A stretch of DNA of 64,000 nucleotides, from positions 2,465,501 through 2,529,500 of the forward strand of contig JAGI01000002.1 of the NCBI GenBank assembly GCA_000526575.1. The letters are read 5' to 3'. The first letter of the stretch is position 1, and the number at the start of each line of letters is the position of its first letter. Below, one piece after another: positions 21,007 to 39,662 of the stretch. Source of the DNA: Clostridium sp. 12(A). GTDB lineage: Bacteria > Bacillota > Clostridia > Lachnospirales > Lachnospiraceae. The notes under the pieces are model-generated. The model worked only from the letters and a program-made list of their open reading frames with translations, made no database searches and was not told where the DNA came from. The position numbers and the translations under genes are program-made.

Positions 21007-21061
21007 AATTTATGCTCCTCAAGCAGGTACCTTCATACTCCCAATAGGAAGGGCTGCGTTG

Positions 21062-22447: not shown

Positions 22448-22461
22448 GCTTCACCTTACCC

Positions 22462-24294
22462 TTAGTTTGCTGTGATATCCGCTACCACGGACAGACGGTC
22501 TTCCCCTCTTTGCTCCGTTGCTGCATCATAGAAAAAGTTGCTTTCAAAGGTAAACTCGGACACCTGGGAAGGGGCTACATCAAATTCAGCCGTTACGGTA
22601 CTGGCATCGATTGGAATGACTCTCTGTTCGCTTCCGTTGACGGTAATAATGATGTGTTCCATGCCGGTAATCACTCCGGGATAATAGAATTTAAAGGTAA
22701 TCTTTCCTTCATTTCCTGCCATGATGCGGGCCTTGGCATTCTCATCAAGCCAGCCGTCTTCATAGCAGCCGTAGACTCTCTCAAACTTTAAGTTACGAAC
22801 GAAATCCGTAATATCCTGGAACGCATTATGGGCTGGATCCTCCCTTAATATGAGCATATTGGGAGTGATGAGTCCAATGGATCCCATGGAATCGATGAAT
22901 GATACTTCCGTGCCTTCCGCTGTCCGTTTCTTATCAAAGGTCTTAAAAAAGGTACGGGCGGTAAAATCACTCATTTTATAAGTATTGCCAATGATATATA
23001 TTTTCTTACCGAAAAGCTTTTCCTTATAGTTTCCGTAGGTCTCCTCTGCCAGGGAATTGTAGCGGAGCTGATTGGACCAATAGTAGAGATTATCGTATTT
23101 TCCGCGGTAAAAGCTTTCCACCGGGAACATAATCAGGCCGTAAAGAACAAACAGACCGCAGTATAACAGAGGTTTGGAAAGATTTGCATTCAACTCTTTT
23201 TTCGGCACTGTCACCCCGCACATATAGGCGGCAAACAGCCAGGCAGCTGTCATGGAGACATAGATCCAGCGGGTTTCCACACGTATGGTGACGCTGGAGG
23301 ATCCGATGCACAAGGCAATAAAGAGAAGAAAAAGGCCAATGACTTTTAACCTGATTTTGCGGTCCTTTTTTTCTTTGATTACCACGGCAAGAAATATAAG
23401 GGTCATAATTGCCAGCATGAGGCCGGAAACCATGACAAGGACCCGAATCCAGGAAGGTGATGCGTCCCAGCTTAATCCGCTTAGATGCTCCGGCCCTGCA
23501 TTGATTCCAAAGATATAAAGAATCTGGCTTACGGCATATTTAAAAACACCAGTTATTTTAAAAGTTTCTGCGACCGTAGTGCCTCCGGTTCCTGCCGGAG
23601 AAATGCTGCCGATGGTAAAAAAGCGAATCACCTGAACTGCTGCAAATGTCAGAGTGGTTGAGATCCAGGGGAGTAGCTTTCGCTCTTTTTTCATCAGAAA
23701 AACAACATAGAAAAGAGGCAGAAGGACCATATACCGTTCATGAATAAAGCAGATGGCAAAATACAGAGCCACGGAACAAGGAATAAGGGCTTTTTTTGCT
23801 GTTTCCTCTGTGATATAGCGGTACAGGCAGTAAAGGATTCCAATGGCTGCCCATAGAGCGAGGGTTTCCATCAAACCATATACCTGGCTGATCTGGTAGT
23901 AGGACATACGGGATAAGAGATACAGGATACCTGTTAAAAATCCCATGGACCACCTTCCGGATAAGCGTTTTCCAAAGCGGTATACCGTATAGGCGATACA
24001 GACATTGACCAGTATATTGATTGGTACAAACCAGCCAATATGATTGCCTGCGATCATAAGCTCCAGCCATGAAATCAGATTAAATACGAAACGGAACCGG
24101 GTGCTTCCTAATGGGAAGACATACTCCCGGAAGGATTGTTCTCCGTAGCAGGACCATAAGTAGAGGTCATCCATGTAAAGTCCTTTTATTTCAATTCCTC
24201 TGTTAATGAAGAAAGCAAAGGCCAGCAAAAGTACGGCTGCTATGATTTCATCTTTCCATGCGGCTTCCTTGCCTATCCATTGTCTGTCTTTCAT
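22462..24294 (-). CDS. Polytopic membrane protein with C-terminal outside domain, GT-C-like
   Basis: This 610-aa protein has about eleven hydrophobic segments to residue 410, then a globular region of about 200 residues ending in a beta-rich stretch (VIPIDASTVTAEFDVAPSQV) likely outside the membrane. The first loop contains 'YMDDLYLWSCYGEQ', an acidic D-D motif typical of GT-C enzymes such as ArnT and PMT relatives. The start at 24294 is chosen because AGGAGG lies five bases upstream; a longer frame to 24354 overlaps gmhA. It would transfer a sugar from a polyprenyl carrier to a wall polymer or protein. The family is not certain. Confidence 0.6.
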   Translation of the reverse strand: MKDRQWIGKEAAWKDEIIAAVLLLAFAFFINRGIEIKGLYMDDLYLWSCYGEQSFREYVFPLGSTRFRFVFNLISWLELMIAGNHIGWFVPINILVNVCIAYTVYRFGKRLSGRWSMGFLTGILYLLSRMSYYQISQVYGLMETLALWAAIGILYCLYRYITEETAKKALIPCSVALYFAICFIHERYMVLLPLFYVVFLMKKERKLLPWISTTLTFAAVQVIRFFTIGSISPAGTGGTTVAETFKITGVFKYAVSQILYIFGINAGPEHLSGLSWDASPSWIRVLVMVSGLMLAIMTLIFLAVVIKEKKDRKIRLKVIGLFLLFIALCIGSSSVTIRVETRWIYVSMTAAWLFAAYMCGVTVPKKELNANLSKPLLYCGLFVLYGLIMFPVESFYRGKYDNLYYWSNQLRYNSLAEETYGNYKEKLFGKKIYIIGNTYKMSDFTARTFFKTFDKKRTAEGTEVSFIDSMGSIGLITPNMLILREDPAHNAFQDITDFVRNLKFERVYGCYEDGWLDENAKARIMAGNEGKITFKFYYPGVITGMEHIIITVNGSEQRVIPIDASTVTAEFDVAPSQVSEFTFESNFFYDAATEQRGEDRLSVVADITAN

Positions 24295-24323
24295 CTCATC
24301 CTCCTGTAATTGGGCTAACCCGT

Positions 24324-24959
24324 TTAAAAGAACCTCTCTTCCAGCATCAAGCACAGTGCGTGATAAACGGGAAGGTGAAGCTCCTGAATTTTAAATGTCT
24401 CTGACTCTGGCACTACAATGGAAACGTCGGCTGTCTTTTTTAACTGGCCTCCGTCTTTTCCCGTAAGTCCTATGGTCTTCATGCCAAGTGCTTTGGCGGC
24501 TGTCATGGCATACATTACATTTTTTGAATTGCCTGAGGTGGAAATACCAAGGAGTACATCTCCTTTTTTTCCATATCCATAGGTCTGCTGTGCAAATATC
24601 ATCTCTCCGTCCACATCATTTAAAAAGGCAGTGGATAGACCTGGGTGTCCGGTCAGGGCTATGGCTGGAAGTCCTCCCTGAAGCTTATCAGCCAGGGCGC
24701 TTCCCAGCTCTGGGTCTATTTCTTTCAGTGTCTCCTGAAACTCAGGAGACACGCTGCGGCGTTTTATAAAGCCTTTCATCAGTTCTCCAACGATATGCTC
24801 TGCATCGGCACAGCTTCCGCCATTTCCTGCGATGAGAAGCTTACCGCCATTTTCATAACAGGCTTCAAGAATCTCATAGGCATTCTTAATCTCTTCCTTG
24901 ATACAGGAAAGAGAAGGGTAGCGTTCCATCAGCTCTTCTAAGTATTTCATGGGTTCCAT
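24324..24959 (-). CDS. gmhA: Sedoheptulose-7-phosphate isomerase
   Basis: This 211-aa SIS-domain enzyme converts sedoheptulose 7-phosphate to D-glycero-D-manno-heptose 7-phosphate in the cytosol. Characteristic stretches are 'LLIAGNGGSCADAEHIVGEL', an insert with 'LPAIALTGHPGLSTAFLNDV', and 'DVLLGISTSGNSKNVMYAM'; the C-terminal 'ELHLPVYHALCLMLE' supplies the conserved Glu/His helix of GmhA. AAGGAGG eight bases upstream selects the ATG at 24959; a longer frame to 25016 overlaps gmhB. It is the first step of the GDP-heptose pathway whose other three enzymes are encoded immediately upstream. Confidence 0.93.
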   Translation of the reverse strand: MEPMKYLEELMERYPSLSCIKEEIKNAYEILEACYENGGKLLIAGNGGSCADAEHIVGELMKGFIKRRSVSPEFQETLKEIDPELGSALADKLQGGLPAIALTGHPGLSTAFLNDVDGEMIFAQQTYGYGKKGDVLLGISTSGNSKNVMYAMTAAKALGMKTIGLTGKDGGQLKKTADVSIVVPESETFKIQELHLPVYHALCLMLEERFF

Positions 24960-25008
24960 GTTATTTTCCTCCTTCTCTGGCGAGGGTATGTCTGAAAACT
25001 GCTTGTTT

Positions 25009-25581
25009 TCAGACACGCCCTAGTATATAATCAGCTGCTTCCTTCATGGAAGGGGCGTAGTAAGCAAATGCCGCTGATCTCTCTTCCTCTTTCATGGAGT
25101 CATAGATGTCTTTTCCGTATCCGGTTCCAACTAAGATGGAACTCACGCCATACCGGCTGCCGGCTTCTGTGTCCAAAAGCTTATCACCAATCATATAGGA
25201 ATGGGCCTTGTCCACCTGGAAAAATGCTTCTGCCATTTCAAACATTCCTGTTTCTGGTTTACGGCAATGGCACTCCGTTTTATACTCCGAAATTCCATGT
25301 ACCGGATGATGGGGGCAGTAGAAAAATTGGTCTATTTCAGCACCTTCCTTTGACAAACGCCTGTTTAATGCTTCATGAAGGATCTTGACATCTTCTTCCT
25401 TATAATATCCTCTGGCAACGCCTGCCTGATTGGTGACAACCACAAGGCGAAAGCCATGCTCTTTCAGACGTCTTAGAGCTCCTGTTACTTCAGGGAGTAT
25501 TATAAGGTCTTCGGGGCGGTATAAGTAGTCTACTTCTTTGTTAATGGTTCCGTCCCGGTCTAAAAATACGATTTTATCCAT
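25009..25581 (-). CDS. gmhB: D-glycero-D-manno-heptose-1,7-bisphosphate phosphatase
   Basis: This 190-aa HAD-IIIA phosphatase removes the 7-phosphate from heptose 1,7-bisphosphate. It has the nucleophile motif FLDRDGTIN (Asp8, Asp10), motif II VVTNQAG, the zinc-binding loop 'YCPHHP...CHCRKPETGM' that separates GmhB from histidinol phosphatases, and motif III 'YMIGDKLLD'. AGGAGA precedes the ATG. It lies 50 bp before gmhA and 29 bp after hddA. Confidence 0.93.
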   Translation of the reverse strand: MDKIVFLDRDGTINKEVDYLYRPEDLIILPEVTGALRRLKEHGFRLVVVTNQAGVARGYYKEEDVKILHEALNRRLSKEGAEIDQFFYCPHHPVHGISEYKTECHCRKPETGMFEMAEAFFQVDKAHSYMIGDKLLDTEAGSRYGVSSILVGTGYGKDIYDSMKEEERSAAFAYYAPSMKEAADYILGRV

Positions 25582-25610: not shown

Positions 25611-26681
25611 TTACAGGTTAAATTTATATTCTCCGCCCGGAATCTTCACCCGGATATCAGAATAGTCCCAACGTGCTTCATCGGTGATCCACGCCTGGGC
25701 TCCTCTTAATTCAAAGTTCCAGTCTGTGAGCTGTCCGCCTGCCGCTTCCATGCGGGCGGCTACTTTGTGGCGCACGTTATAGGGGCAGTATACCAAAAGG
25801 AAACCGCCACCACCTGCACCTAAAAGCTTTCCGCCAAGGGCGCCTGCCTTTAAAGCCTCTTCGTAGAGCTCATCGATATGAGGAGTGGTGATCTTGGTGC
25901 TCATACGTTTTTTGCTTTTCCAGCCGAAATCGAGAAGCTTTCCAAAGCTATATAAATTTCCCTTTAACAGCTCATCTTTCATGGCATAGGCAAGTGCTTT
26001 TACCTCACACATGGCATCAAAGGGATCTTTCTTTTCATAGTTGGATACCTGGTCTTTTATGATGTTGGCGGATACGTGGATATTGCCGGTGTAGCATAAA
26101 AGCAGGTTGTACTGGAGCTCGTGAATGATCTCCTTTTTGATTCGAAGTGGGTTTACCACTACGTTGTTACGACCGTGGAATTCGATGAAATTAAAGCCGC
26201 CGAAGGTGGCTGCGTACTGATCCTGATAGCCTCCGTCGATCTTTAAATCCTCTCGTTCCACCTTATAGGCTAAATCAGCCATGGCATAGCTGTCCAGCTC
26301 AATGCCCTTCCATTTGGCCATGGCGGTCAAAAGGGCCACCATAACGGTAGAAGAGGTTCCAAGGCCTGAGCCTGGAGGTGCATCGCACTGTAAATAAACT
26401 TCACAGCCCTGTTTGATGTCCATGGCTTTTAAGGCTGCCGTTACAAGGTCCAGCCTGCCATCGTAGACATAGTTTTCATTGGTGTTGTATTTAACCGTCA
26501 TGTCAAAGTCCAGGGAATGGACGATGATCTGGTCGTCTTCTCTTGGAACTATGGAGCAATAGGCGTACTTATTAATGGTACTTCCAATGATAGCTCCTCC
26601 CTGTTCCACACAGAAGGGGGCCACATCGGTTCCGCCTCCTCCAAAACTTACCCGAAGGGGCGCACGTCCTCTGATAATCAT
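25611..26681 (-). CDS. hddA: D-glycero-alpha-D-manno-heptose-7-phosphate kinase
   Basis: This 356-aa GHMP-family kinase phosphorylates C1 of heptose 7-phosphate in the alpha configuration. It opens RGRAPLRVSFGGGGTD, has the ATP loop PPGSGLGTSS near residue 102 and the C-terminal glycine motif 'GALGGKLLGAGGGGFLLVY'. These features match HddA of the GDP-D-glycero-alpha-D-manno-heptose pathway, known from the S-layer glycan of Aneurinibacillus thermoaerophilus, rather than HldE of the ADP-heptose route. Its ATG overlaps the hddC stop in an ATGA arrangement, implying translational coupling. Confidence 0.93.
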   Translation of the reverse strand: MIIRGRAPLRVSFGGGGTDVAPFCVEQGGAIIGSTINKYAYCSIVPREDDQIIVHSLDFDMTVKYNTNENYVYDGRLDLVTAALKAMDIKQGCEVYLQCDAPPGSGLGTSSTVMVALLTAMAKWKGIELDSYAMADLAYKVEREDLKIDGGYQDQYAATFGGFNFIEFHGRNNVVVNPLRIKKEIIHELQYNLLLCYTGNIHVSANIIKDQVSNYEKKDPFDAMCEVKALAYAMKDELLKGNLYSFGKLLDFGWKSKKRMSTKITTPHIDELYEEALKAGALGGKLLGAGGGGFLLVYCPYNVRHKVAARMEAAGGQLTDWNFELRGAQAWITDEARWDYSDIRVKIPGGEYKFNL

Positions 26682-27385
26682 ATGGTCACCGTTCCTTTCC
26701 TTACATCTTCATCAAACCGGTAATAATCTTCTGGAACTCCAATATCAATAAAATAGCCGTCATTGACAAAGCCGCCAAGCTTTTTTCCCTCTGACAGCCA
26801 CTTGGGGATCATATCATGTTCTAAAGAAACCTTTCCTTCCGGAATTTCTTCAAGAAGGGAACGTCGAAGGTAGTAAACGCCTCCGTTGATGGTTCCTCTT
26901 ACGGATTCTTCTGTTTTTTCGTCAAAGGATTTTAACCAGCCATCTTCCAAAAGAGCCTGTCCATACCGGGATACGTCAGGTACTTCCCGCAATACCAGAG
27001 CCATATGGAGATTCCGCTCCTCACTTAAGGAGGTCAGTCTTTCATAATCAATCTGATAGAAGGTATCTGCATTCAGTGCCAGAAACCGGTCATCGGTCAC
27101 GAGACGCCCTGCATTCTTAATCGCTCCGGCTGTGCCTAAGAGCTCTTCTTCATAGGCGTAGGAAACCTTAACTCCCCATCTTGTGCCGTCTTCAAAATAT
27201 TCCTCAACCATAGAGCCTTTATAGCCTACGGCAAATATAATCTCTTTGACTCCATGCTTTATCAGCTCCAATACCACATATTCCATGAAGGGCTTGCCTT
27301 CAATCAGTGCCATTGGCTTTGGCCTGTCATTTACCACGGAACGGAGCCGTGTGCCAAGACCGCCTGCCAGCAATACTGCCTGCAT
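26678..27385 (-). CDS. hddC: D-glycero-alpha-D-manno-heptose-1-phosphate guanylyltransferase
   Basis: This 235-aa nucleotidyltransferase has LLAGGLGTRLRSVVNDRPKPM at its N-terminus, a metal-binding 'LNADTFYQ' near 105-112 and 'GTINGGVYYLRR' near 163. Position and neighbours identify it as HddC, which would make GDP-D-glycero-alpha-D-manno-heptose; GTP specificity is inferred from context. It is the first gene of a seven-gene operon, with an extended -10 promoter upstream and AGGAGG at 27394-27399. Confidence 0.88.
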   Translation of the reverse strand: MQAVLLAGGLGTRLRSVVNDRPKPMALIEGKPFMEYVVLELIKHGVKEIIFAVGYKGSMVEEYFEDGTRWGVKVSYAYEEELLGTAGAIKNAGRLVTDDRFLALNADTFYQIDYERLTSLSEERNLHMALVLREVPDVSRYGQALLEDGWLKSFDEKTEESVRGTINGGVYYLRRSLLEEIPEGKVSLEHDMIPKWLSEGKKLGGFVNDGYFIDIGVPEDYYRFDEDVRKGTVTI

Positions 27386-27558: not shown

Positions 27559-30500
27559 CTAGAAATCTTCCCCAACCACGCTCCAGGCTGCATCAATGCT
27601 GTGATATCTGCGGATGTAATTCTGGGTCTCTTCACAGATTTGTTTGCAGCGTTCTGTATCCTGATACATGGAAACTACCTCCTGGGCAAAGCCCTGAGGA
27701 TCATCGGTAACAGCCATAACCTTTTCTGCATCAGGGATTCCTTCTGCTCCGATGGAGGTCGTTACGATAGGGGATCCATGATAAAGGGCTTCAATGACCT
27801 TTCCTTTTACGCCAGCTCCATAGCGGAGGGGAACTACTACCACTCGGCAGGAGGCATACAGTCTGGAAAGCTCCTCATCGGATACAAAGCCTTTGACTAT
27901 GATTCCATTCCCCGGCTGCTCCAGGGCCTTGATCTCATCCGTTACCTTGGAGCCTACGATGTAGAAATTCACCGGAAGCACCTGACGGATTAATGGGAAT
28001 ATATCATTGGCAAACCATAAAACGGCGTCAATGTTCGGCGGATGGGCAAAGCCGCCTACAAACAGCAGTCCTTCCCGCTTGGAAAAATCATCGGGAATGC
28101 GGCTTAAAAATGTTTCAAACACGTAAGCGACGATGGCCTTTACGTGAATGGAAGGCTCTATTTCATGAATGGCTTCCCGTTCTACATAGGAAGGATAATA
28201 GGAAACAGATGCCTTTCTCATGAGGCGCAGCTCCATGGATTTCCAGTACTCGGAGGACTCTCTCTTTTCCGGGTCTCCAGTCAGCTCGTACTCTCTTCCT
28301 TCCCGTAAGAAATGGAGATCATGGCCGTAGTAGATTACCTTTATATTAGTTTTGTTTTTAATAAAGTCGATATATTTAGCTGCGATATGAGGACGGTTTA
28401 AATAAGCCACCTTAATATCATCGCTATGGTCCTTTAACCAGTTCCAGATTCCGGCCTGGTATTCGGGGCCGTAAAGAATCTCGATTCCCATCTGCTGTAA
28501 AACGGTGGAATAAGGTTCTTCATGAAGGAAGTTATCCCCAAGGAATTTTACCACGTAACCTTTTTCCACAAACATCTGGAGATACTGGAAGGTGGTCTTG
28601 GAGCCGGCATCCCGATCGTAAGTGGGGACATAATGATCCACCACAAGTATGATGTCCTTATTCTGGCTTCGCTCTCTCGCCCGGAAGGGGTCTGGGTTTC
28701 CGTCATTTTCACATTGCTTTTTAAATTCTTCTGCCCATTTTTCCTGAAGCTTTCGGCTGTTTTCTACCTGATACCGCTTTAGGCCGGTACCATTGACATC
28801 GGTGCCGTTTGAGATACCTTCAAAGTGAATGACCTTGGAAAGAGGCTGATATACCACCCGAAGTCCTGCTTTTCTTACTTCAAAGGCCAGGTCGGAATCC
28901 TCGCAGTAAGCAGGGGCAAACCGTTCATCAAAGCCACCGATCTGCTTCCAAAGTTCATTGGAAAGTAAAATGGCTGCGCCTGAAATGTAGTCCACATCTT
29001 TTACATAATTGTATTCCGGCTTTTCCGGGTCGTCCAAACGTCCGTAATTCCAGCCGGAGCCGTCACTCCAGAGAATGCCTCCGGCTTCCTGAAGGCGTCC
29101 GTCTGGGTACACCAGCTTAGAGCCTACCATACCAATGGTGGAGTCGGATTCAATTAAGTTTACAAGACTGGACAGCCAGCCTTCTGTTACCTGGGTGTCA
29201 TTGTTTAAGAACATGACATATTTTCCTCTGGCAGCCTTGGCTGCCTGGTTACAGTTCTTTAAAAAGCCCTGGTTTGTTTCATTTCTGCAGATCACCAGAT
29301 TCTCGGTGAATTTGGTAAGCTCCGAAGTGGCATCTGTGGAAACATCGTCTGCGATAATTACCTCATATACCACATCTTTGGTATGCTCTAAGATAGAGGC
29401 AAGGCAAGCGTAGGTATAATGAATCTGGTTGTATACCGGAATGATGATAGAGACCATGGGATGGCCTTCTTTTACGAACCGCAGCTTTCCATGCTTTCTG
29501 TAAGCTTCCCCGATCTTCATATCTCCTTCTATTAAATTCCTGCCTTCCTCTGTGGTATAAAGGCGGATGGAATTTATGGGATGAAGCAATGTATTTTTCG
29601 TATAATAAAGCAGCTTTCGCTTTCTTGTGCCTTCCGGGAATTTCTCGTTAAAGAGGCGTTTCAGCCTTCTTCCCACCCGGTAGAACAAAGCCTCGTGGCG
29701 TCTTAATCGGTTGATGATCTCTTCCATGTTTTCGCAGTCTTTCCGAAGAGTGGTGATGATCATATCCTGATTGGTCACATGGTTATCCGTCAGGCGCTTT
29801 ACTTCCTGCTGTTTTGTGATGGTCACATCTTTTTCATGAAGCTCCATTTCCATCTGGGAAATCTGCTCTTTGGTATCATCAATGATCTGGGATACTTCAA
29901 ACATATTATCTGGAATGGCATGGGTCTCATGCATGTAGTTTACCAGATAAATCTGCTGGTTTTCTCCATGGACGTATTCCTGGAAGCTGCGTTCCATCTC
30001 CTGATAAAGGGACAGACGATCCCCATCTACTCCGAATTCCTCTAAAAATGCTTCCATGGAATCGTAGGTCAGGATGCTTTTATACTGCTCATAGAAATAA
30101 TAGAGTACCCGGAATTTAATAAAGTTAACTGGAACCGGGAAGGTAAATACCCATTCATAATCCAGACAATAAGGACCATTTTCAGTTAACATAATATTCT
30201 CAAAGAGACAGTCTATGTTAGATGCCTGGAAGGTCCAGTCTTTTTTGATTTTCTCATCCGCCTGGGATAGGTCACCAAAGACCTCCTTAAATTCAGGAGT
30301 TAAATGAAATGGAAGCATGCAATCTTCCTTTACACTTAAGATCATGGAAATGGCATCTTCCATCTTGGAAACGGAAACCTTTCCGTCCTTGATCTCCCTG
30401 CCTAAAACTTCAGATAAGGTCTCTCCCTTTAAGAATTCAAATCGGGCGGTCCGTCCATCAGGGCTTACAGAAACCTCTGCCACCTTTAACCTCTGGTTCT

Positions 30501-30672
30501 GCTCCATAAGATTCTTATATTTGTCGCCAAGGGACCGGATATGTGCAGTGCCTTCCGGGGTCAGGGCTGATTTTTCCACATAGGGAACTCCGCCTTCCTC
30601 CACCAGACTGGTGCGGATCTGAAAGGCTTCCCTGCGGGTTTTATTGTATTTTACAAAGTTAATCTTCTTCAT
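27559..30672 (-). CDS. Kinase-like, coiled-coil, GT2 and GT4 multidomain protein
   Basis: This 1037-aa cytosolic protein has four parts. Residues about 5-240 look like a protein-kinase/APH fold: 'YVEKS' (Lys34), then SNIDCLFENIML (Asp154, Asn159) and CLDYEW (Asp171, Glu173), which line up with the catalytic loop and metal Asp of choline kinases. About 258-330 is a heptad-rich coiled coil. About 405-640 is GT2 (VSIIIPVYNQIHYTY, DDVSTDATS, LNNDT). About 680-1037 is GT4 with VPLRYGAGVKGKVIEALYHG near the end. The start has GGAG five bases upstream and overlaps the methyltransferase gene by 14 bp. Domain order recalls WbdD kinase plus coiled coil joined to a WbdA-like polymerase. The kinase call is by motif and needs structural support. 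Confidence 0.8.
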   Translation of the reverse strand: MKKINFVKYNKTRREAFQIRTSLVEEGGVPYVEKSALTPEGTAHIRSLGDKYKNLMEQNQRLKVAEVSVSPDGRTARFEFLKGETLSEVLGREIKDGKVSVSKMEDAISMILSVKEDCMLPFHLTPEFKEVFGDLSQADEKIKKDWTFQASNIDCLFENIMLTENGPYCLDYEWVFTFPVPVNFIKFRVLYYFYEQYKSILTYDSMEAFLEEFGVDGDRLSLYQEMERSFQEYVHGENQQIYLVNYMHETHAIPDNMFEVSQIIDDTKEQISQMEMELHEKDVTITKQQEVKRLTDNHVTNQDMIITTLRKDCENMEEIINRLRRHEALFYRVGRRLKRLFNEKFPEGTRKRKLLYYTKNTLLHPINSIRLYTTEEGRNLIEGDMKIGEAYRKHGKLRFVKEGHPMVSIIIPVYNQIHYTYACLASILEHTKDVVYEVIIADDVSTDATSELTKFTENLVICRNETNQGFLKNCNQAAKAARGKYVMFLNNDTQVTEGWLSSLVNLIESDSTIGMVGSKLVYPDGRLQEAGGILWSDGSGWNYGRLDDPEKPEYNYVKDVDYISGAAILLSNELWKQIGGFDERFAPAYCEDSDLAFEVRKAGLRVVYQPLSKVIHFEGISNGTDVNGTGLKRYQVENSRKLQEKWAEEFKKQCENDGNPDPFRARERSQNKDIILVVDHYVPTYDRDAGSKTTFQYLQMFVEKGYVVKFLGDNFLHEEPYSTVLQQMGIEILYGPEYQAGIWNWLKDHSDDIKVAYLNRPHIAAKYIDFIKNKTNIKVIYYGHDLHFLREGREYELTGDPEKRESSEYWKSMELRLMRKASVSYYPSYVEREAIHEIEPSIHVKAIVAYVFETFLSRIPDDFSKREGLLFVGGFAHPPNIDAVLWFANDIFPLIRQVLPVNFYIVGSKVTDEIKALEQPGNGIIVKGFVSDEELSRLYASCRVVVVPLRYGAGVKGKVIEALYHGSPIVTTSIGAEGIPDAEKVMAVTDDPQGFAQEVVSMYQDTERCKQICEETQNYIRRYHSIDAAWSVVGEDF

Positions 30673-31438
30673 GGCGGCTCCAAATGGTTAAAAATGAATT
30701 GGCAAATGTCTGAAACTGTTTTCCCTCACATACTTCATCAAACATCTTTCCTAAATCAAAACGCAGGTATTTGGGATAATCGTAAGCTAAAATAGCATGG
30801 GTCAGATCCCCCTTGGAGGGAAGATAAGAATCGGAATATATGGTAACAGGAAGCTTATAATCCGGCATGGGATAATAGAATTCTACGTTTCCCTGACATT
30901 TTTCCTCTCCACATAACAGTTCTAAAAGCTCCTGTCTGGAAAGTTTTGTTTGATCGGAGACAGCTCCTGCCTGATACTTTAAGCCCAAGCGGTTGCACAG
31001 GGAAAGAATCAGTTTTCCTTCTGGCTTTAGAAGTTCCTTTGCCTTCCCGATCTGTTCCTGATAAGGCTCTTCTAAAGAACCAACCATGACCACATAATCG
31101 AATTGCTCTTCGGGAAAGGTATCAAGGCATCCGGTAACGTATTTGATGTTGTCCCGTTTCTGATGGCGAAGGCGGTTAAAGGACAGATTGTTCTGATTGG
31201 ATTCTAAGACAGTCACCTCTTTTACTCTGCGGCTGTATAAGCCGGTAAGAGCGCCATAATCGGAACCGATCTGTAAGAGAGAAGCATTTTCCTCAAACGG
31301 GAACCATTCCAGCAGATTTTCCCGGATGTCTGATAAGGCATACATATAATCCAGGTTGGGATTGTCTTTTAAAATCGCCTTTGTGTCTCCCTGATATTTT
31401 ACATATAAATTTCTGATTTCAGGGCTTAAATCGTTCAT
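30659..31438 (-). CDS. SAM-dependent methyltransferase of the glycan operon
   Basis: This 259-aa class I methyltransferase has motif I 'SLLQIGSDYGALTGLYSRRV' near residue 54, 'VTVLESNQ' for the acidic ribose contact, and motif IV 'FDYVVMVGSLEEPY'. Substrate is unknown, but it is encoded between a Wzt with a C-terminal glycan domain and the kinase-like/glycosyltransferase protein, whose gene it overlaps. In ABC-dependent O-antigen systems a methyl or phospho-methyl cap on the chain end stops elongation and is recognised by Wzt; a capping role is the best inference. AGGAGG precedes the ATG by eight bases. Confidence 0.85.
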   Translation of the reverse strand: MNDLSPEIRNLYVKYQGDTKAILKDNPNLDYMYALSDIRENLLEWFPFEENASLLQIGSDYGALTGLYSRRVKEVTVLESNQNNLSFNRLRHQKRDNIKYVTGCLDTFPEEQFDYVVMVGSLEEPYQEQIGKAKELLKPEGKLILSLCNRLGLKYQAGAVSDQTKLSRQELLELLCGEEKCQGNVEFYYPMPDYKLPVTIYSDSYLPSKGDLTHAILAYDYPKYLRFDLGKMFDEVCEGKQFQTFANSFLTIWSRHEED

Positions 31439-31451
31439 TGATGCTTCCTCC

Positions 31452-32795
31452 TCACACTCTGTCCCGGTGCAGCATTAAACTTACTTCCGGTTCCATATCA
31501 TAGATACCCACTGTATTCTTGTTGGAAATAACCGTTATGTTCACAATATCATACAGACGGTGGTAAACAACATGTTCTCCGTTTTCAAATCCGGTACAGC
31601 TCATGGAAAGCAGATATTCCCCTCCTTGAAGGGTCATTTTCTGTTTGAATTCCACCTCATATTCATCGCCGTTTTTCACCGGCTCAACGTCTGAAGCTTC
31701 ATACATGGTATTGGTGCCGGTCAAATCGGCTCCCCGTTTGTCCTTGATGGTGTAAGTAAAAATAGGAGCTTCGATGTCTCCGTGGAAATGGATTCTCTCT
31801 TTGATGGTGAAATACTCGCCCTTTAAAAGAAGGTTAGAAACATTTCCCCGCTCATCAAGGAGACCGAAATCTACAATTTCAGCCTTTTTATCTCCGTATT
31901 CGGTACGGTTTGGATTCACGGTCAGCTTATCCTTCATAAAGCCTTCCTGGGCTGCCTTTGCGTCTTTTCTGGATTTCACATGTTCGCCGGAGAAGTCATT
32001 TAACTCTCCGCTCCTTATTTCCTCCAGTTCCAGAGACAAATCATCCATCTGATTGGCTAAGATTTTCTTATATAAATCCACCATTTTTCCTGGTTCGCCC
32101 TGAGCTATGAAATTACCCTTGTTTAATACCACTACCTGGTCACAGTATTTGATAATGGCACCCATGTCGTGTGTAACCATTAAAATAGTGGTTCCATTCT
32201 GGCGGATTTCTTCCATACGGCGGTAGCATTTTGCCTGGAAGAATACGTCTCCTACGGAAAGGGCTTCATCGACGATCAGTATCTCCGGCTCTACATTGAT
32301 GGCAAGAGCGAAGGCCAGACGGACGAACATACCGCTGGAATATGTTTTTACAGGCTGGTATACAAAATCGCCGATGTCTGCAAAATCCAGGATATCCTTA
32401 AGCTTGTCATCCATCTCTTTTCTGGAGAATCCCATCATGGTTCCGTTCATATAGATGTTTTCGATTCCGGTATAGTCCATGTTAAAGCCTGCGCCTAACT
32501 CCAGTAAGGCTGAGATAACGCCATTTACCTCCATAGTTCCGGCGGTAGGGGTCAGGACTCCTGTGATGATCTTTAAAATGGTTGACTTTCCGGAACCATT
32601 GGTTCCGATGATGCCTACGGTCTGTCCTTTTTTCACATCAAAAGAAATGCCGTTTAAGGCATAGAAATCCCGATGATAGTTTTTATGGGTCGGGCTCATG
32701 GCTTCCTTTAAGCGATCGATGGGCTTTTCGTATAGCTTATATATTTTTGTTACGTTATTAACTGATATTGCATGATTGTTCGATTCTACGGACAT
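31452..32795 (-). CDS. Wzt-type ABC exporter ATPase with C-terminal glycan-binding domain
   Basis: This 447-aa protein has an ABC domain to about residue 245: Walker A GTNGSGKST near 64-72, signature TYSSGM, Walker B ILIVDE followed by ALSVGD. A linker follows, then a beta-rich C-terminal domain at about 285-447 ('GEYFTIKERIHFHG', 'EFKQKMTLQGGEYLLSMSC') of the Wzt_C immunoglobulin-like type. That domain binds the modified non-reducing end of the polymer in E. coli O8/O9a systems. GGAGG at 32801-32805 selects the ATG at 32795 over a frame starting at 32828. It works with the permease at 32818-33630. Confidence 0.92.
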   Translation of the reverse strand: MSVESNNHAISVNNVTKIYKLYEKPIDRLKEAMSPTHKNYHRDFYALNGISFDVKKGQTVGIIGTNGSGKSTILKIITGVLTPTAGTMEVNGVISALLELGAGFNMDYTGIENIYMNGTMMGFSRKEMDDKLKDILDFADIGDFVYQPVKTYSSGMFVRLAFALAINVEPEILIVDEALSVGDVFFQAKCYRRMEEIRQNGTTILMVTHDMGAIIKYCDQVVVLNKGNFIAQGEPGKMVDLYKKILANQMDDLSLELEEIRSGELNDFSGEHVKSRKDAKAAQEGFMKDKLTVNPNRTEYGDKKAEIVDFGLLDERGNVSNLLLKGEYFTIKERIHFHGDIEAPIFTYTIKDKRGADLTGTNTMYEASDVEPVKNGDEYEVEFKQKMTLQGGEYLLSMSCTGFENGEHVVYHRLYDIVNITVISNKNTVGIYDMEPEVSLMLHRDRV

Positions 32796-32817
32796 TGAAT
32801 CCTCCATACTAAGCTTG

Positions 32818-33630
32818 TCACAACACATCTGAAAAATGAGGACGCAGCTTTTTAAATACTTTTAACCCAAGGAGCATGATCACGATTGTCACGGTCCAAA
32901 AATAAAGTCCAAGGGTGGGTCTTTCTACCAGCCAGTTTCCGGACAGCATGCTGTCTCTGTACCCTGCTACAATGTAATAGAAAGGATTTAATTTAAGCAA
33001 AGTCGGCAGCCAGGAAGGAAAATTTTTAAACATTTCCGGTGCCCACATGATAGGAACCATCCACATGCCAAACTGCAGGCAAATGCCGATGATCTGTGCC
33101 ATGTCCTTGAAGAAAACCTGTATGGCACTTGTAAAATAAGCAATTGCAAGGGAAAACATGGAGCTTGCAAAGGAGTAATAAGCGATTTGAATCCAGCTTG
33201 CTTTTGGAAACACGCCATAGCATAAGAATACTACGATCATGATAAGAGCAAAGATTCCATGTACCATAAGGCAGGAAATCAGCTTGATGACCGGAAGAAT
33301 CTCCACGCGGAAAACCACCTTTTTCACCAGATAATTATATTCCTGCAGGCAGCCGGTTCCAAGGTTCAGTACCTCACTGAAAAAGAACCAGGGTACTATG
33401 CCTGGGATGAGCCACAGCACATATGGGTAATTGGGTACCGGCGGCACACTTTTAAATCCCATCTGGAATACGAAAAAGTAGACCAGCACCGTTGCCATAG
33501 GCTGTAAGAACATCCAGGCAATCCCAAAGTAGGAACCTACGAATCGTTTCTTAAAATCTGCTTTTGACAGCTCCAGGATTAGCTTTCTTTTTGTTATAAT
33601 TTCTTTTAACAAGGAAACCAGATAATTCAT
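32818..33630 (-). CDS. Polysaccharide ABC-2 exporter permease (second system)
   Basis: This 270-aa ABC-2 membrane protein of the Wzm/TagG family has about six hydrophobic segments and the family's amphipathic start with 'FKKRFVGSYFGIAWMFLQPM', followed later by 'WMVPIMWAPEMF' and 'LNPFYYIVAGYRDSML'. It forms the channel partner of the Wzt-type ATPase 22 bp downstream. AGGAG lies just before the ATG. It is distinct in sequence from the permease at 3182-3970, so the window encodes two separate glycan exporters. Confidence 0.92.
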   Translation of the reverse strand: MNYLVSLLKEIITKRKLILELSKADFKKRFVGSYFGIAWMFLQPMATVLVYFFVFQMGFKSVPPVPNYPYVLWLIPGIVPWFFFSEVLNLGTGCLQEYNYLVKKVVFRVEILPVIKLISCLMVHGIFALIMIVVFLCYGVFPKASWIQIAYYSFASSMFSLAIAYFTSAIQVFFKDMAQIIGICLQFGMWMVPIMWAPEMFKNFPSWLPTLLKLNPFYYIVAGYRDSMLSGNWLVERPTLGLYFWTVTIVIMLLGLKVFKKLRPHFSDVL

Positions 33631-33645: not shown

Positions 33646-34200
33646 CTAAAATTTAAAGGTATCCTTAATGCTGCCCCACTTCTGATCCTTTTCAGAAATA
33701 ATCAGCTCCATACCTTCTTCGATCGGCCACTGGATTCCGATTTCCGGATCACTCCAAAGAAGGCCGCCTTCATCACCAGGATGATAGAAATCAGTACATT
33801 TATAAGCAAATTCTGCTTCATCAGACAGAACCAGGAATCCATGAGCAAAGCCTTCCGGAATATAGAACTGCTTTTTGTTTTCTGCTGTCAGCTCAACGCC
33901 GAACCATTTTCCATACGTTTCGGAAGTGGAACGAAGATCCACTGCCACATCGAATACCTTGCCTTTGATTACACGAACCAGCTTTCCCTGTGGAAACTCC
34001 TTCTGGAAATGAAGGCCACGAAGAACTCCCTTTACTGACATGGACTGATTATCCTGTACGAAATTCATGGTAAGGCCTGCTTCTTTAAAATCGTTCTGAT
34101 TATAGGTCTCTACAAAATAGCCTCTGGAATCTGGAAATACTGTTGGCTCAATGACATAAAGTCCTTCTATTCCGCACTCTGATACTTTTATCTTTCCCAT
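33646..34200 (-). CDS. rfbC: dTDP-4-dehydrorhamnose 3,5-epimerase
   Basis: This 184-aa cupin-fold epimerase acts in dTDP-L-rhamnose synthesis. It has 'FPDSRGYFVETYNQNDF', the catalytic His in 'GVLRGLHFQ' and the 'FYIPEGFAHGFLVLSDEAEF' block with the conserved Tyr/Asp partners. It is first in the exporter operon, with its own promoter. The other three dTDP-rhamnose genes (rfbA, rfbB, rfbD) are not in this window, so they must be elsewhere or the enzyme serves another dTDP-sugar. Several rhamnosyltransferase-like GT2 genes occur at 46-59 kb. Confidence 0.93.
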   Translation of the reverse strand: MGKIKVSECGIEGLYVIEPTVFPDSRGYFVETYNQNDFKEAGLTMNFVQDNQSMSVKGVLRGLHFQKEFPQGKLVRVIKGKVFDVAVDLRSTSETYGKWFGVELTAENKKQFYIPEGFAHGFLVLSDEAEFAYKCTDFYHPGDEGGLLWSDPEIGIQWPIEEGMELIISEKDQKWGSIKDTFKF

Positions 34201-34444: not shown

Positions 34445-35620
34445 TTACTGTTTGGCAATGAATGATTTTCTCTTACTCACAACATCAAAGATAACTGCTG
34501 CCATAAGAACCGCTCCTTTTACTACCTTCTGGAGATTCTGGTCTACTCCCATAATACTCATTCCAAGATTAAGTACACCCATAAGCGTAGCACCTACAAT
34601 AACTCCTGGTACGGTTCCGGTTCCGCCGTAGGCAGAGGCTCCTCCAATGAAGCAGGCGCCAATGGCATCCATCTCGTAGTTATTTCCTGCGGTTGGGTTT
34701 GCGGAATTAAGACGGGCTACGGTTACCATGCCTGCAACAGCTGCTAAGAGGCCCATGTTTAAATACGCAAGGAAATATACCTTATTGGTATCAATACCAG
34801 ATAATCTTGTGGCCTTTTCATTGCCTCCTACGGCATAGAAATAACGTCCAGTGGTGGTTTTCGAGGAAATATAGCTGTAAATTCCGATGATGACTGTGAC
34901 CCAGATAAGAGCGTTTGGAATGCCTTTGTATTTTGCCAGCTTATACATAAAAGCAAGAATGACAAAGCTGATGAGTGACAGCTTTACAATGGTCCCAAAT
35001 AATGGATCTACATGGTATCCTTTTTGTTGTCTTCTTCTACGGCTTAAAAGCTCCAGAACGATAAAGACCAGGCAGGCAATAATTCCGATTAAAAAGCAGG
35101 TCAGGTTAAAGCCTTCCATTCCAAAAATATCCGGGACATAGGAGTTAAACAGAGATAGAAATGGGTCCGGGATCGGAGATAATGTCATACCCTGTAGAAC
35201 TACATTAGAAAGTCCACGGAACATGAGCATTCCGGCCAGGGTTACGATAAACGGAGGAATTCTTACATAGGCAATCCAGAACCCCTGCCATGCTCCGGCT
35301 AATATTCCGATGATGGCCATAGCCAGTAAGGTCAGATAGGGATTGATGCCAAATGTGATCATCATGGTTCCCCCAACCGCTCCAATAAAGCAGACCAGGG
35401 AACCTACGGATAAATCAATATTGCCTCCGGTGAGAATACAAAACAGCATACCGGTAGCAAGAATAAATACATAGGCGTTCTGTGCGATTAAGTTATTTAC
35501 GTTCTGGGGCAGAAGCATTTTCCCGCCTGTATTGACTGTAAATAGAATGACCACTACTAAAAGAACGATTATCATGGTATATTTTTTTAATCCCTCAGAT
35601 AATTTAATCTTATTTTTCAT
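34445..35620 (-). CDS. gguB: Multiple-monosaccharide ABC importer, permease
   Basis: This 391-aa permease of the XylH/GguB branch of the ribose-type (BPD_transp_2) family has about ten membrane segments. It carries 'LTGGNIDLSVGSLVCFIGAVGG' near residue 62 and 'GRYFYAVGGNEKATRLSGID' in the cytoplasmic coupling region, plus the family's extra central hydrophilic loop with RRRRQQKG. It imports sugars such as xylose, arabinose, glucose or galactose with the ATPase 3 bp upstream and the binding protein at 37289-38449. The exact sugar is not readable. A strong terminator follows. Confidence 0.92.
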   Translation of the reverse strand: MKNKIKLSEGLKKYTMIIVLLVVVILFTVNTGGKMLLPQNVNNLIAQNAYVFILATGMLFCILTGGNIDLSVGSLVCFIGAVGGTMMITFGINPYLTLLAMAIIGILAGAWQGFWIAYVRIPPFIVTLAGMLMFRGLSNVVLQGMTLSPIPDPFLSLFNSYVPDIFGMEGFNLTCFLIGIIACLVFIVLELLSRRRRQQKGYHVDPLFGTIVKLSLISFVILAFMYKLAKYKGIPNALIWVTVIIGIYSYISSKTTTGRYFYAVGGNEKATRLSGIDTNKVYFLAYLNMGLLAAVAGMVTVARLNSANPTAGNNYEMDAIGACFIGGASAYGGTGTVPGVIVGATLMGVLNLGMSIMGVDQNLQKVVKGAVLMAAVIFDVVSKRKSFIAKQ

Positions 35621-35623
35621 TGC

Positions 35624-37213
35624 TTACTCTCCCTTCTGCTGTTCTGCCCGTTCTAGGGGGGCTTTCTCTGTCCCATCAGAGTATTTATCTGATTTTAAAA
35701 TACAGGCCATGATTTTTTCCTGAGTTGCCTCTTCTGCATCGATCTCTCCTACCATCCTGCCTTCATTCATTATATAAATGCGGTCAGACATTCCAAGGAC
35801 TTCCGGAAGCTCGGAGGAAATCATAATCACTGATTTTCCTTCTGCTGCCAGGCGGTTGATGATGCAGTAGATTTCATATTTGGCACCTACGTCGATTCCC
35901 CTGGTAGGTTCATCTAAAATAAGAATATCCGGCTCTGCAAACATCCATTTGGCAAGCAGCACCTTTTGCTGGTTTCCACCGCTTAGATTTCCTACGTTTT
36001 GTTCCACGGAGGAGCATTTCGTCTTTAATTTATCCCGGTATTCCTGGGCCACACCAAACTCTTTGTCTTTGTCTATGATGGTCCGGCGGCTAATGGCCTT
36101 TAAATTAGACAAGGTGGTATTGATTTTAATGGGATTTCCAAGAATGAGCCCATTGCCTTTCCGGTCTTCTGTTACATAGGCAAGCTTATGCTTTATGGCG
36201 TCCTTTACCGAGGATAAGTTCACCTCTTCCCCATGAATGCGAGCGGTGCCTGAAATATTGGCGCCATAGCTTTTGCCAAAGATACTCATGGCAAGCTCAG
36301 TTCTTCCGGCTCCCATCAGGCCGCAGATTCCAAGGACTTCTCCTTTTCTTACATGAAAGGATACGTCACTTACTACCTTCCGGTCGGAATAGAGGGGATG
36401 GTAGGCATTCCAGTGCTCCACCTCCATGGCCATTTCACCAATGGTCACATCGTGGCGTTTTGGGAAACGGTCCACAAGCTCCCGGCCTACCATTCCTTTA
36501 ATGATACGGTCCTCAGAGATATCATCTACCTTCCGGTCCAGAGTCTCTATGGTCTGACCATCTCTAAGAATGGTTATCTTATCTGCCACATAGGCTATCT
36601 CATTCAATTTGTGGGAAATGATGATGGAGGTCATTCCCTCTTTCTTGAATTTTAATAAAAGCTCCAGAAGAGCTTTTGAATCGTCTTCGTTCAGTGATGC
36701 GGTAGGCTCATCAAGGATCAAAAGCCTTGCCCGCTTGGCTAATGCTTTTGCAATCTCTACTAACTGCTGCTTTCCTACGCTGATATCCTTAATTAATGTA
36801 TGGGAGGATTCTGTAAGACCCACAGTCTTTAAGTATTTGTCTGCCTCTCCATAGGTTTCATTCCAGTCGATGGCATATTTTTTTCCCTTTTCATTTCCAA
36901 GATACATGTTTTCTGCAATTGTCATATATGGAACCATTGCAAGCTCCTGATGGATGATGACAATGCCTTTATGCTCGCTGTCACTGATGTCGTGAAATTC
37001 ACAGATCTGTCCGTCGTAGATGATGTCCCCCTCATAGGACCCATATGAGTATATCCCGCTTAACACGTTCATGAGAGTTGACTTTCCTGCTCCGTTTTCG
37101 CCCACCAGGGCGTGAATCTCGCCTTCCTCCACCTGGAGGTTCACATCACTTAATACCTTAACGCCAGGAAATGTCTTTGTTATGTTTTTCATTTCTAGCA
37201 GTATTTTAGCCAA
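35624..37213 (-). CDS. gguA: Multiple-monosaccharide ABC importer, duplicated ATP-binding protein
   Basis: This 529-aa protein has two ABC domains. The first has Walker [10 protein letters not shown], signature ISVGKQQ and Walker [10 protein letters not shown]; the second has a degenerate Walker [10 protein letters not shown], signature LSGGNQQ and Walker [10 protein letters not shown]. This is the RbsA/XylG/GguA layout. '[11 protein letters not shown]' and '[19 protein letters not shown]' are typical of the multiple-monosaccharide branch. The start is a TTG at 37213 with GGAGG seven bases upstream. Confidence 0.93.
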
Positions 37214-37288
37214 GATTAACCCTCCCTTCCCATTATCATGAAAGGGCGTCTCCCGCTTGGCAGAAGCCGCCCCTTAAGGAAATCATTT

Positions 37289-38449: not shown

Positions 38450-38547
38450 GGTTCTTTGTTCCTCCTCCAATACTTTATTTGTAGCTTTATCTTATCACCA
38501 ACCTATCTGGATATGTTTGTGAACCATTAGCACTCATTCATCCACAT

Positions 38548-38578
38548 AAAAAAAGCCCTGACCCCCCAGGACTTTTTC
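38548..38578 (-). terminator. Terminator of the sensing operon
   Basis: AGTCCTG and CAGGGCT pair on the minus strand (38573-38567 with 38560-38554, one G-U), followed by seven T. T residues on the other side make it potentially bidirectional. It isolates the sensing operon from the importer operon. Confidence 0.8.
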
Positions 38579-38610
38579 GTTTCAAAAAAATGCTATGCTG
38601 TTTATTATTA

Positions 38611-39657: not shown

Positions 39658-39662
39658 AACCT

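Follow-up and report, generated by a model that had tools for sequence, protein, structure and literature searches.

Kinase-capped glycans of measured length are known from Gram-negative O-antigens, and the locus described here raises the question of whether an organism that is Gram-positive by its gene content uses such a cap, and from which terminator its machinery descends. The locus lies within 64,000 nucleotides of Clostridium sp. 12(A) (contig JAGI01000002.1, positions 2,465,501 to 2,529,500), hereafter the window. We are fairly confident that it encodes machinery which assembles and terminates a surface glycan exported by an ABC transporter, and that this machinery is homologous to the methyltransferase (MT)-kinase terminators of the O7 type.

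Organization of the locus

33646..34200 (-): RmlC, dTDP-4-dehydrorhamnose 3,5-epimerase (PF00908, 1.4e-75), by position the upstream end of the cluster
32818..33630 (-): Wzm, ABC-2 permease (PF01061, 1.9e-12)
31452..32828 (-): Wzt, ABC ATPase with C-terminal glycan-binding domain (ABC_tran, 2.7e-23)
31494..31907 (-): Wzt_C domain, Wzt aa 308-445 (PF14524, 1.6e-41)
30659..31438 (-): MT-fold protein, separate gene, 259 aa (Methyltransf_11, 4.3e-7)
31253..31276 (-): altered SAM-binding loop of the MT, aa 55-62 (LQIGSDYG versus LEIG[AS]GCG in most relatives)
27559..30672 (-): 1037-aa kinase-like/coiled-coil/GT2/GT4 ORF
29935..30672 (-): putative O7-type kinase domain, aa 1-246 (D154, N159, D171, E173, W174; invariant in 61/61)
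29668..29925 (-): putative ruler, a coiled coil at about aa 250-335
28708..29460 (-): GT2 glycosyltransferase module, aa 405-655 (PF00535, 2e-26; 54% identity to L160)
27583..28575 (-): GT4 glycosyltransferase module, about aa 700-1030 (PF13692, 2.4e-24; 38-41% identity to L138, L139, L160 and L161)
26678..27385 (-): HddC-like D-glycero-D-manno-heptose 1-phosphate guanylyltransferase (NF049965, 3.2e-54, below its cut-off)
25611..26681 (-): HddA-like D-glycero-D-manno-heptose 7-phosphate kinase (NF049969, 3.7e-86, below its cut-off)
25009..25581 (-): GmhB-like heptose bisphosphate phosphatase (NF006506, 2.3e-51, just below its cut-off)
24324..25016 (-): GmhA-like sedoheptulose 7-phosphate isomerase (TIGR00441, 5.7e-44, below its cut-off)

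This layout is in accord with an earlier note, which had described a Wzt with a C-terminal domain, followed by an MT gene overlapping the gene for the 1037-aa protein by 14 bp, and GT2 and GT4 domains in that protein. Pfam places these two domains at aa 408-532 and 868-1005. Counted from its first ATG, the Wzt reading frame reaches 32828, where the range of the note had stopped at 32795. RmlB and RmlD are encoded elsewhere in the genome (C2:3.524-3.526 Mb).

Two relatives from the Lysobacterales (L160 and L161) encode MT-kinase-GT2-GT4 proteins followed by the same four heptose genes as in the window; the matching GT2-GT4 modules of L138 and L139 are not accompanied by heptose genes within the stretch examined. 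Our literature search turned up no chemical characterization of a Lachnospiraceae polymer or cap.

The kinase domain and its descent

The N-terminal region of the 1037-aa protein carries K34, D154, N159 and D171, as had been claimed, and all four are invariant in 61 of 61 aligned sequences, the window's included. Among 40 further relatives, K34 and D171 are found in 40/40 and D154 and N159 in 39/40, and in a Gram-negative comparison set the columns of the catalytic Asp and of the D-x4-N Asn are conserved in 77/77, the later Asp in 76/77. K34 is not necessarily the lysine that binds ATP, since in the Gram-negative set its column holds mainly other residues (Y 37, R 11, H 10; n = 77).

Neither Pfam nor NCBIfam gives this domain of about 250 residues a kinase name. 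Pfam returned a single weak sub-cut-off match for aa 1-250 (REX1B, aa 217-294, E 0.0066) and, for the 61 kinases, no kinase among the 25 listed of 107 families. Kinase profiles found no significant kinase in the PDB: one search gave no match, and in another the best kinase was JAK1 (E 0.33), a weak alignment, suggestive only, that places K34 on what we take to be the beta-3 lysine. The whole protein gave only GT2 matches in the PDB by phmmer and no confirmed match against viral contigs.

The assignment comes from profile comparison. The profile of 61 kinases matched that of the Gram-negative family (73 sequences) with an hhalign probability of 99.3% (E 3.8e-20), against at most 1.3% for 20 column-shuffled controls and 0.2 and 0.6% for cross-domain controls; matches to single Gram-negative sequences were weaker (L093 93%, L094 42%). 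The MT profile matched the MT domain of the O7-type family at 100% (E 8.4e-57). We tie the Gram-negative family to ORF6 of Klebsiella pneumoniae O7, accession MN173773.1, because its member L093 bears Y28, Y66, G91, G93, E112 and Y158 at the exact numbers named for ORF6; the link thus runs through L093 rather than through direct comparison with the ORF6 sequence. D443 of L093 (77/77 in the Gram-negative set) aligns with D154 of the window and stands two numbers from D441 of O7, whose change to alanine is described as abolishing phosphorylation (PMC11231755). Based on these profiles, the kinase and MT are homologous to the O7-type MT-kinase terminators of Gram-negatives, and aa 1-246 would constitute an O7-type kinase domain with phosphorylating activity. 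A pseudokinase reading was considered and rejected.

According to the available text of Kelly et al. (2024; PMC11231755), ORF6 is by experiment a methylphosphate terminator fused to polymerase modules, MT-kinase-(CBM)-coiled coil-GT2-GT2, in a cluster with wzm, wzt and rhamnose genes. The earlier note knew of no description of a kinase-polymerase fusion; since ORF6 has one, that fusion is not new. The window shares with ORF6 the homologous kinase and MT (by profile, via L093), the coiled coil and the C-terminal polymerase glycosyltransferases, but differs in that its MT is a separate gene rather than part of one polypeptide with the kinase, judged by length a CBM would not fit between its kinase and its coil, its modules are GT2 and GT4 rather than two GT2, and it has an altered SAM loop, a Gram-positive host and heptose genes.

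The Lcin_0519 family of the Legionella pan-kinome likewise pairs a kinase with an MT, commonly with a coiled coil and Wzt, Wzm and glycosyltransferase neighbors; judging from its description it is probably the same family as O7, and a Legionella member, L147, sits in our Gram-negative set. In contrast to the window, the orders named for it are Gram-negative, and the MT domain is also present in 96% of members (PMC9758233). Another kinase-MT family, Lani_1194 (NoeA-like), considered here by description only, is also reported from Clostridium and Methanoculleus (PMC9758233).

The coiled coil

A coil between terminator and glycosyltransferases, as in O7-type proteins, is present in the window, where the earlier note had placed one; its basis is a heptad signal over aa 250-335 (p = 0.003 versus 1000 shuffles) rather than a dedicated coil predictor. 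The stretch is 81 residues long in 16 of 20 relatives at 46% identity, the deviations being steps of 3, 4, 7 and 21 residues, and in the same comparison the kinase ranges from 217 to 260 aa at 45% identity. The 20 exclude L053 and L055, which have shorter kinase-GT2 linkers (98 and 95 versus 144) that do not resemble the coil of the window. They also exclude the seven proteins with a GT4 from the second set described below.

Distribution, fusion and splitting

Of 299 genomes of Lachnospiraceae, to which the window belongs, 153 contain a match to the kinase family, and Wzt_C is also present in 146 of these 153 (Fisher 7.6e-42). We counted loci from 100 of the 152 other matching genomes. The first set comprises the 60 best-matching genomes after the window with G033 left out, and the second 40 weaker matches, not strictly next in rank since G239 was passed over. 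The search for the MT and kinase-glycosyltransferase pair beside Wzt_C in other Firmicutes, suggested earlier and made here in Lachnospiraceae, found Wzt_C in 58 and Wzm in 52 of the first 60 loci.

MT and kinase are split in 58 of the 100 loci and fused in 40, no MT being found in 2. The split majority of the first set (43/60) is not upheld as a general rule by the second, where 15 loci are split and 23 fused, and no MT was found in 2. On the tree, the fused and split states require 13 changes; because 31 of 57 inner branches are open, we claim only that fusion or splitting recurred. Natural MT-kinase-coil-GT2-GT4 fusions occur in close relatives, which the earlier note had overlooked. L037 is one example of a natural fusion. 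L041, with broken frames, was counted as fused and its open kinase piece is among the 61, but MT counts and trees exclude it; L044, cut by the end of its contig, is likewise absent from MT counts; and L015 (from G033, with a masked run in the kinase) is a row in the first kinase and MT alignments only, absent from later alignments, counts and trees. As far as our searches reach, the family's frequency in Lachnospiraceae, its company with Wzt_C, the proportion of split loci and the 81-residue coil are new.

Erosion of the methyltransferase

The most surprising result is the contrast between the nearly invariant kinase residues and the lost SAM contacts of the MT, a loss that had escaped the earlier note. 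The window MT has three of the six contact residues named for O7: in motif I, E is changed to Q and the middle Gly to Asp, Y28 and Y158 have no counterpart, and EDH is lost. Together with 18 others of its group it lacks two or three of the six, whereas all six are present in 77/77 Gram-negative relatives and 31 of 37 loci of the other group (Asp being accepted at E112). L042 and L053 are among the MTs that have the complete six. L089 and L090 of the first set are short (195 and 204 aa) and only partly aligned. In the second set 17 of 38 MTs scored below six, but seven of these (L189, L191, L196, L197, L203, L208 and L219) have no aligned motif I and are kept out of the argument because they may be truncated or misaligned. 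Mapped on the kinase tree, eroded and intact MTs require six changes of state, at least four forced by supported branches. Against the PDB, the window MT as a single sequence reached a best E of 0.029, and its profile matched generic SAM methyltransferases, WbdD being absent from the best 60 of 142.

Because the window MT is without three of the six contacts, the full O7 chemistry, with a separate MT that tolerates its altered loop and goes on methylating the phosphate, may not apply. It is possible that a methylphosphate cap is nonetheless made, although we lean against it: the MT gene has not been lost and shares 14 bp with the kinase gene, E79 as the acid of motif II is preserved along with Y33, G58 and G62, of the 19 eroded members at least 17 have a conserved far motif (YYP.PDY...YSD..LP), and L032, the window's nearest relative, has a canonical motif I; the motif I changes and the intact contacts elsewhere speak against it. 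Judged from these residues, the MT of the window's group has probably either lost its methylating activity or retains it in changed form. A bolder reading, to which we give somewhat under an even chance, is that in Lachnospiraceae the kinase is the essential terminator, and that the MT has repeatedly decayed to a partner that does not methylate and is retained for the fold and acceptor pocket it provides, surface glycans being capped by plain (or cyclized) phosphate.

Proposed mechanism and alternatives

In the proposed machine, the GT2 and GT4 modules would polymerize a lipid-linked chain at the membrane, probably of L-rhamnose and D-glycero-D-manno-heptose. The coiled coil would keep the kinase at a fixed distance from these modules, so that the non-reducing end would be phosphorylated only once the chain is long enough, and this cap would halt growth. 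The MT protein may dock on the kinase. By analogy with characterized systems, Wzt_C is expected to read the cap and would admit capped chains to the Wzm/Wzt exporter. The expected product is a polymer of rhamnose and D,D-heptose with phosphate as its terminal cap, which may lack the methyl group.

APH-like kinases phosphorylate many small hydroxyl substrates, and the target could be a precursor sugar, a lipid or some other molecule instead of the chain end; we consider this improbable given the kinase's fixed position at the distal end of a coil carried by the polymerase, the strong tie to Wzt_C and the O7 precedent (PMC11231755). Very unlikely is capping as by Geobacillus WsaE, with the MT methylating a sugar hydroxyl and the kinase-like domain an inactive scaffold. 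That system is also Gram-positive, with an MT fused to two glycosyltransferases, Wzm/Wzt export, rhamnose and a 2-O-methyl cap, no kinase being mentioned in the available text (PMC2943079); we rejected it since here the kinase residues are nearly invariant and the MT is the eroding part.

Least credible is the origin proposed in the earlier note, a true WbdD split in two with its kinase and coil transferred to the polymerase, which is disfavored by an hhalign probability of 0.3-0.4% between the 61-kinase profile and E. coli HS WbdD (entered as a single sequence) and by the reported dissimilarity of O7 and WbdD kinases in sequence and structure (PMC11231755). In its favor, E. coli HS has the same working parts, likewise positioned after Wzm-Wzt; the profile of the Gram-negative kinases meets the WbdD catalytic loop in register (8.3% probability only); and the SAM motif of WbdD is matched by the MT profile (66%, E 5.7e-5), which would match many methyltransferases as well. 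The note's comparison thus holds for function, with kinase, coiled-coil ruler and polymerase in one chain beside an MT and a Wzt bearing Wzt_C, but not for descent. E. coli O9a WbdD, as described, resembles the window in its working, with kinase, MT, coil and cap; its kinase has no detectable sequence relation, and its polymerase, WbdA, is a separate protein, whereas the window has GT2 and GT4 in the kinase chain (PMC3482155).

Implications

The O7-type homology suggests a function for a domain that the family databases leave without a kinase name. The surface sugar chain of this organism would apparently be built, measured by a coiled-coil ruler and stopped by a phosphate, using a relative of the Klebsiella machine that is differently split and whose methylating partner looks damaged. 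If plain-phosphate capping is true, it would be the mirror image of methyl-only WbdD caps and a gene-level candidate for phosphate caps like that of the Clostridium difficile SLCT-11 S-layer glycan. That glycan, also Gram-positive and exported by an ABC transporter, carries a non-reducing-end phosphate, assigned as 2,3-cyclophosphate on rhamnose, and the available text assigns no gene to the cap (PMC6254364). With the same enzyme family in about half of the sampled Lachnospiraceae genomes, and its modules naturally divided and joined in many ways, the family offers a large natural experiment on ruler length, on the need for covalent attachment of the MT and on the need of phosphate methylation for export.

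Genome setting of the glycan cluster

The genes of the cluster lie on the minus strand of the window in the following order:

RmlC
Wzm
Wzt
30659-31438 (-), 259-aa methyltransferase-fold protein (MT)
27559-30672 (-), 1037-aa protein with kinase domain (aa 1-246), coiled coil (~250-335), GT2 and GT4
HddC-like
HddA-like
GmhB-like
GmhA-like

The 14-bp overlap of the MT gene with the kinase-like/GT2/GT4 gene, described in an earlier note on this DNA, was reproduced in the window's ORFs. RmlB and RmlD are encoded ~1 Mb away in the same genome, in which three ORFs have SLH repeats. Because Spo0A is present and LpxC had no match in this genome, the organism is, by gene content, a Gram-positive without LPS.

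Directly upstream of the cluster (34445-42756, -), a sugar ABC importer set was read from translations only, comprising a permease, an ATPase and two binding-protein-like ORFs and accompanied by a response regulator and an ORF resembling a sensor. At 20074-24354 (-), a 461-aa and a 630-aa ORF, both multi-span membrane proteins by eye, are followed by a PgfS/ArnC-like polyprenyl-phosphate GT2 (NF047588, 2.8e-75). Neither ORF matched NCBIfam and the 630-aa ORF had no Pfam match; the three genes resemble a module attaching side groups to a glycan extracellularly.

Relationship of the kinase to O7 ORF6

ORF6 of Klebsiella pneumoniae O7 comprises an MT, an unannotated 223-aa kinase, a CBM, a coiled coil and two GT2 domains (Kelly et al. 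2024, PMC11231755), so the earlier note's remark that no such fusion had been described does not stand. In that paper, ORF6 places phosphate on the non-reducing rhamnose and then methylates that phosphate, the D441A variant gives no product, the nearest solved fold to the kinase is the kinase AmiN, and the SAM contacts are named as Y28, Y66, G91, G93, E112 and Y158 (PMC11231755). The window differs from ORF6, with its in-chain MT, CBM and paired GT2 domains, in having a separate MT and GT2 followed by GT4.

A plasmid tblastn search with a fused relative returned two Gram-negative proteins, L093 (Pseudomonas asturiensis, 1457 residues) and L094 (Citrobacter braakii), each encoded immediately after ABC transporter permease and ATPase genes. 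Profile comparison over MT and kinase jointly gave 100% for both, and the kinase profile alone gave 93% for L093 and 42% for L094. All six O7 SAM contacts are found in L093 at identical residue numbers. A scan of GTDB contigs with these proteins confirmed at least 277 loci, of which 80 were kept; together with L093 and L094 they form a Gram-negative set of 82, 77 of them alignable over the MT-kinase region. Among the matches listed, D443, N448 and E463 occur in 77/77 and D461 in 76/77. Restricted to the kinase, the profile of the window's family scored 99.3% (E 3.8e-20) against 73 Gram-negative sequences, versus at most 1.3% in 20 column-shuffled controls, which by profile similarity places the window kinase in the O7-type Gram-negative family. 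D154 of the window is very probably the counterpart of the aspartate tested in O7, a link made via L093 rather than O7's own sequence.

In three Nitrospirales MAGs (L152, L154 and L155) the O7-type MT-kinase domains sit in open frames that also have GT2 hits and run to 2496-3115 aa, the largest among the loci compared; the L152 frame is truncated where its stretch ends.

Across 61 kinase sequences of the window's side, twelve residues do not vary: R13, T21, K34, G83, F122, F132, D154, N159, D171, E173, W174 and P181. Among 40 further relatives, K34, D171, E173 and W174 are present in all and D154 and N159 in 39, the sole exception (L205) being one of two loci in which no MT was found; the conservation of D154, N159 and D171 that the earlier note's reading required is thus upheld. 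In the Gram-negative relatives the K34 position is usually occupied by Y, R or H, and K34 is peculiar to the window's side of the family. The kinase profile of the window's family did not match WbdD as encoded in the O9 cluster of E. coli HS, and homology with the WbdD kinase was set aside.

Distribution and architecture of relatives

The kinase region (first 249 residues of the 1037-aa protein; E up to 0.001) matched 153 of 299 genomes of the bacterial family, window included. Wzt_C was found in 180/299 and the two together in 146 (Fisher 7.6e-42). In a phylum sample, 7/299 genomes matched, four from the window's family (window included) and three from other families; in each of these three the MT adjoins or is fused to the kinase, and one of the three short loci has Wzt_C.

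The 60 best-matching loci of the family have Wzt_C in 58 and Wzm in 52, with MT and kinase split in 43 and fused in 17. In 32/60 the kinase chain carries similarity to the window's GT2/GT4, a missing GT hit meaning simply a chain dissimilar to the window's GTs. The 40 weaker-matching loci comprise 15 split, 23 fused and two with no MT found. Single MT-kinase-coil-GT2-GT4 proteins occur among close relatives (L037, L038, L043, L058) and in the weaker-matching set (L186, L190, L198, L201, L217), and the window's MT/kinase cut accordingly coincides with a domain boundary bridged in other species. In one 86% complete genome (L012/L041) the Wzm-Wzt-MT-kinase-GT set is fragmented throughout into many frames, by either decay or assembly error.

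Of 20 close relatives, window included, 16 have exactly 81 residues in the stretch aligned to aa 255-335, and the other four have 84, 85, 88 and 102; across the same 20, at like identity (kinase 45%, coil 46%), the kinase varies between 217 and 260 residues in length. Coil-length differences of 7 and 21 residues correspond to whole heptads, and those of 3 and 4 to known coiled-coil discontinuities. Heptad periodicity was significant (p < 0.02) in 17/20, the exceptions being L049, L050 and L058. Linkers are ~50 residues shorter in the more distant GT4-bearing L053 and L055 and span 132 to 531 residues, measured to the matched part, in other kinase-GT2 proteins, so coil length is fixed within the close-relative group only.

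Proposed composition of the polymer

L160 (Fulvimonas soli; GT2 54%, GT4 38% identical to the window) and L161 (Pseudoxanthomonas; 53% and 41%) have the architecture MT-kinase-GT2-GT4, with HddA-, GmhA-, HddC- and GmhB-like genes downstream, and are the only ones with HddA hits among the 82 Gram-negative loci listed. Speaking against such a tie to heptose, L138 and L139 have GT2-GT4 equally similar to the window's and no heptose genes within the fetched stretch. In the 60 family loci, several of them cut by contig ends, HddA occurs in 6/21 with GT4 on the kinase chain versus 0/39 without (Fisher 0.001). RmlC and this association of heptose genes with GT2-GT4 suggest a rhamnose/D,D-heptose polymer. 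The S-layer glycan of Aneurinibacillus thermoaerophilus is composed of rhamnose and D,D-heptose, and a heptose-containing S-layer glycan has been reported previously.

The Lysobacterales all-in-one proteins (L160, 10208-13204; L161, 9549-13201) share the window's GDP-D,D-heptose gene set, which suggests that an entire glycan cassette has been exchanged between Gram-negative and Gram-positive bacteria.

Erosion of the methyltransferase

MTs were scored on the six O7 SAM contacts. All six are present in 77/77 Gram-negatives among the matches listed and in 31/37 loci of the window's family without GT4. In the GT4 loci (window included), 3/22 have six, 18/22 three and 1/22 four, for an overall tally of 34/59 intact and 25/59 eroded. 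The window MT has LQIGSDYG in place of LEIG[AS]GCG. Neither the N-terminal Tyr nor the EDH triad is present in it, and the motif II acid is retained. Its nearest relative, L032, has a canonical motif I, yet three other contacts are gone. Mapped onto the kinase tree, the intact and eroded states require six changes, of which supported branches force no fewer than four, although this is a quick tree with less trustworthy supports and the changes may be gains or losses. Of 38 MTs from the 40 further loci, 21 have all six contacts and 17 fewer, seven of the latter being left out of the argument as motif I was unaligned.

The remote motif YYPxPDY, taken as the acceptor side, is conserved within the eroded group. 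The kinase and MT fold thus appear to have been kept while the SAM contacts were lost repeatedly. We read the eroded MT as a partner that would no longer methylate, but altered SAM binding in it is possible.

Precedent and significance

In the Clostridioides difficile SLCT-11 S-layer glycan the terminal rhamnose is assigned as a 2,3-cyclophosphate; its authors state that, to their knowledge, a terminal phosphate on an S-layer glycan was previously undescribed, and the portions of the article used here assign no enzyme to the cap (PMC6254364). The main text of the O7 paper makes no mention of Firmicutes, Gram-positive or Clostrid (PMC11231755). In the part of the Legionella pan-kinome article used here, Gram-negative orders are named for the Lcin_0519 family, and its other kinase-MT family, Lani_1194, known here by description, is also reported from Clostridium (PMC9758233). 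Among the open-licence papers listed by our searches, none reports the O7-type kinase family from Gram-positives or an MT partner with eroded SAM contacts, and our claim of novelty extends no further than those searches. The SLCT-11 cap is a Gram-positive precedent for a phosphate cap.
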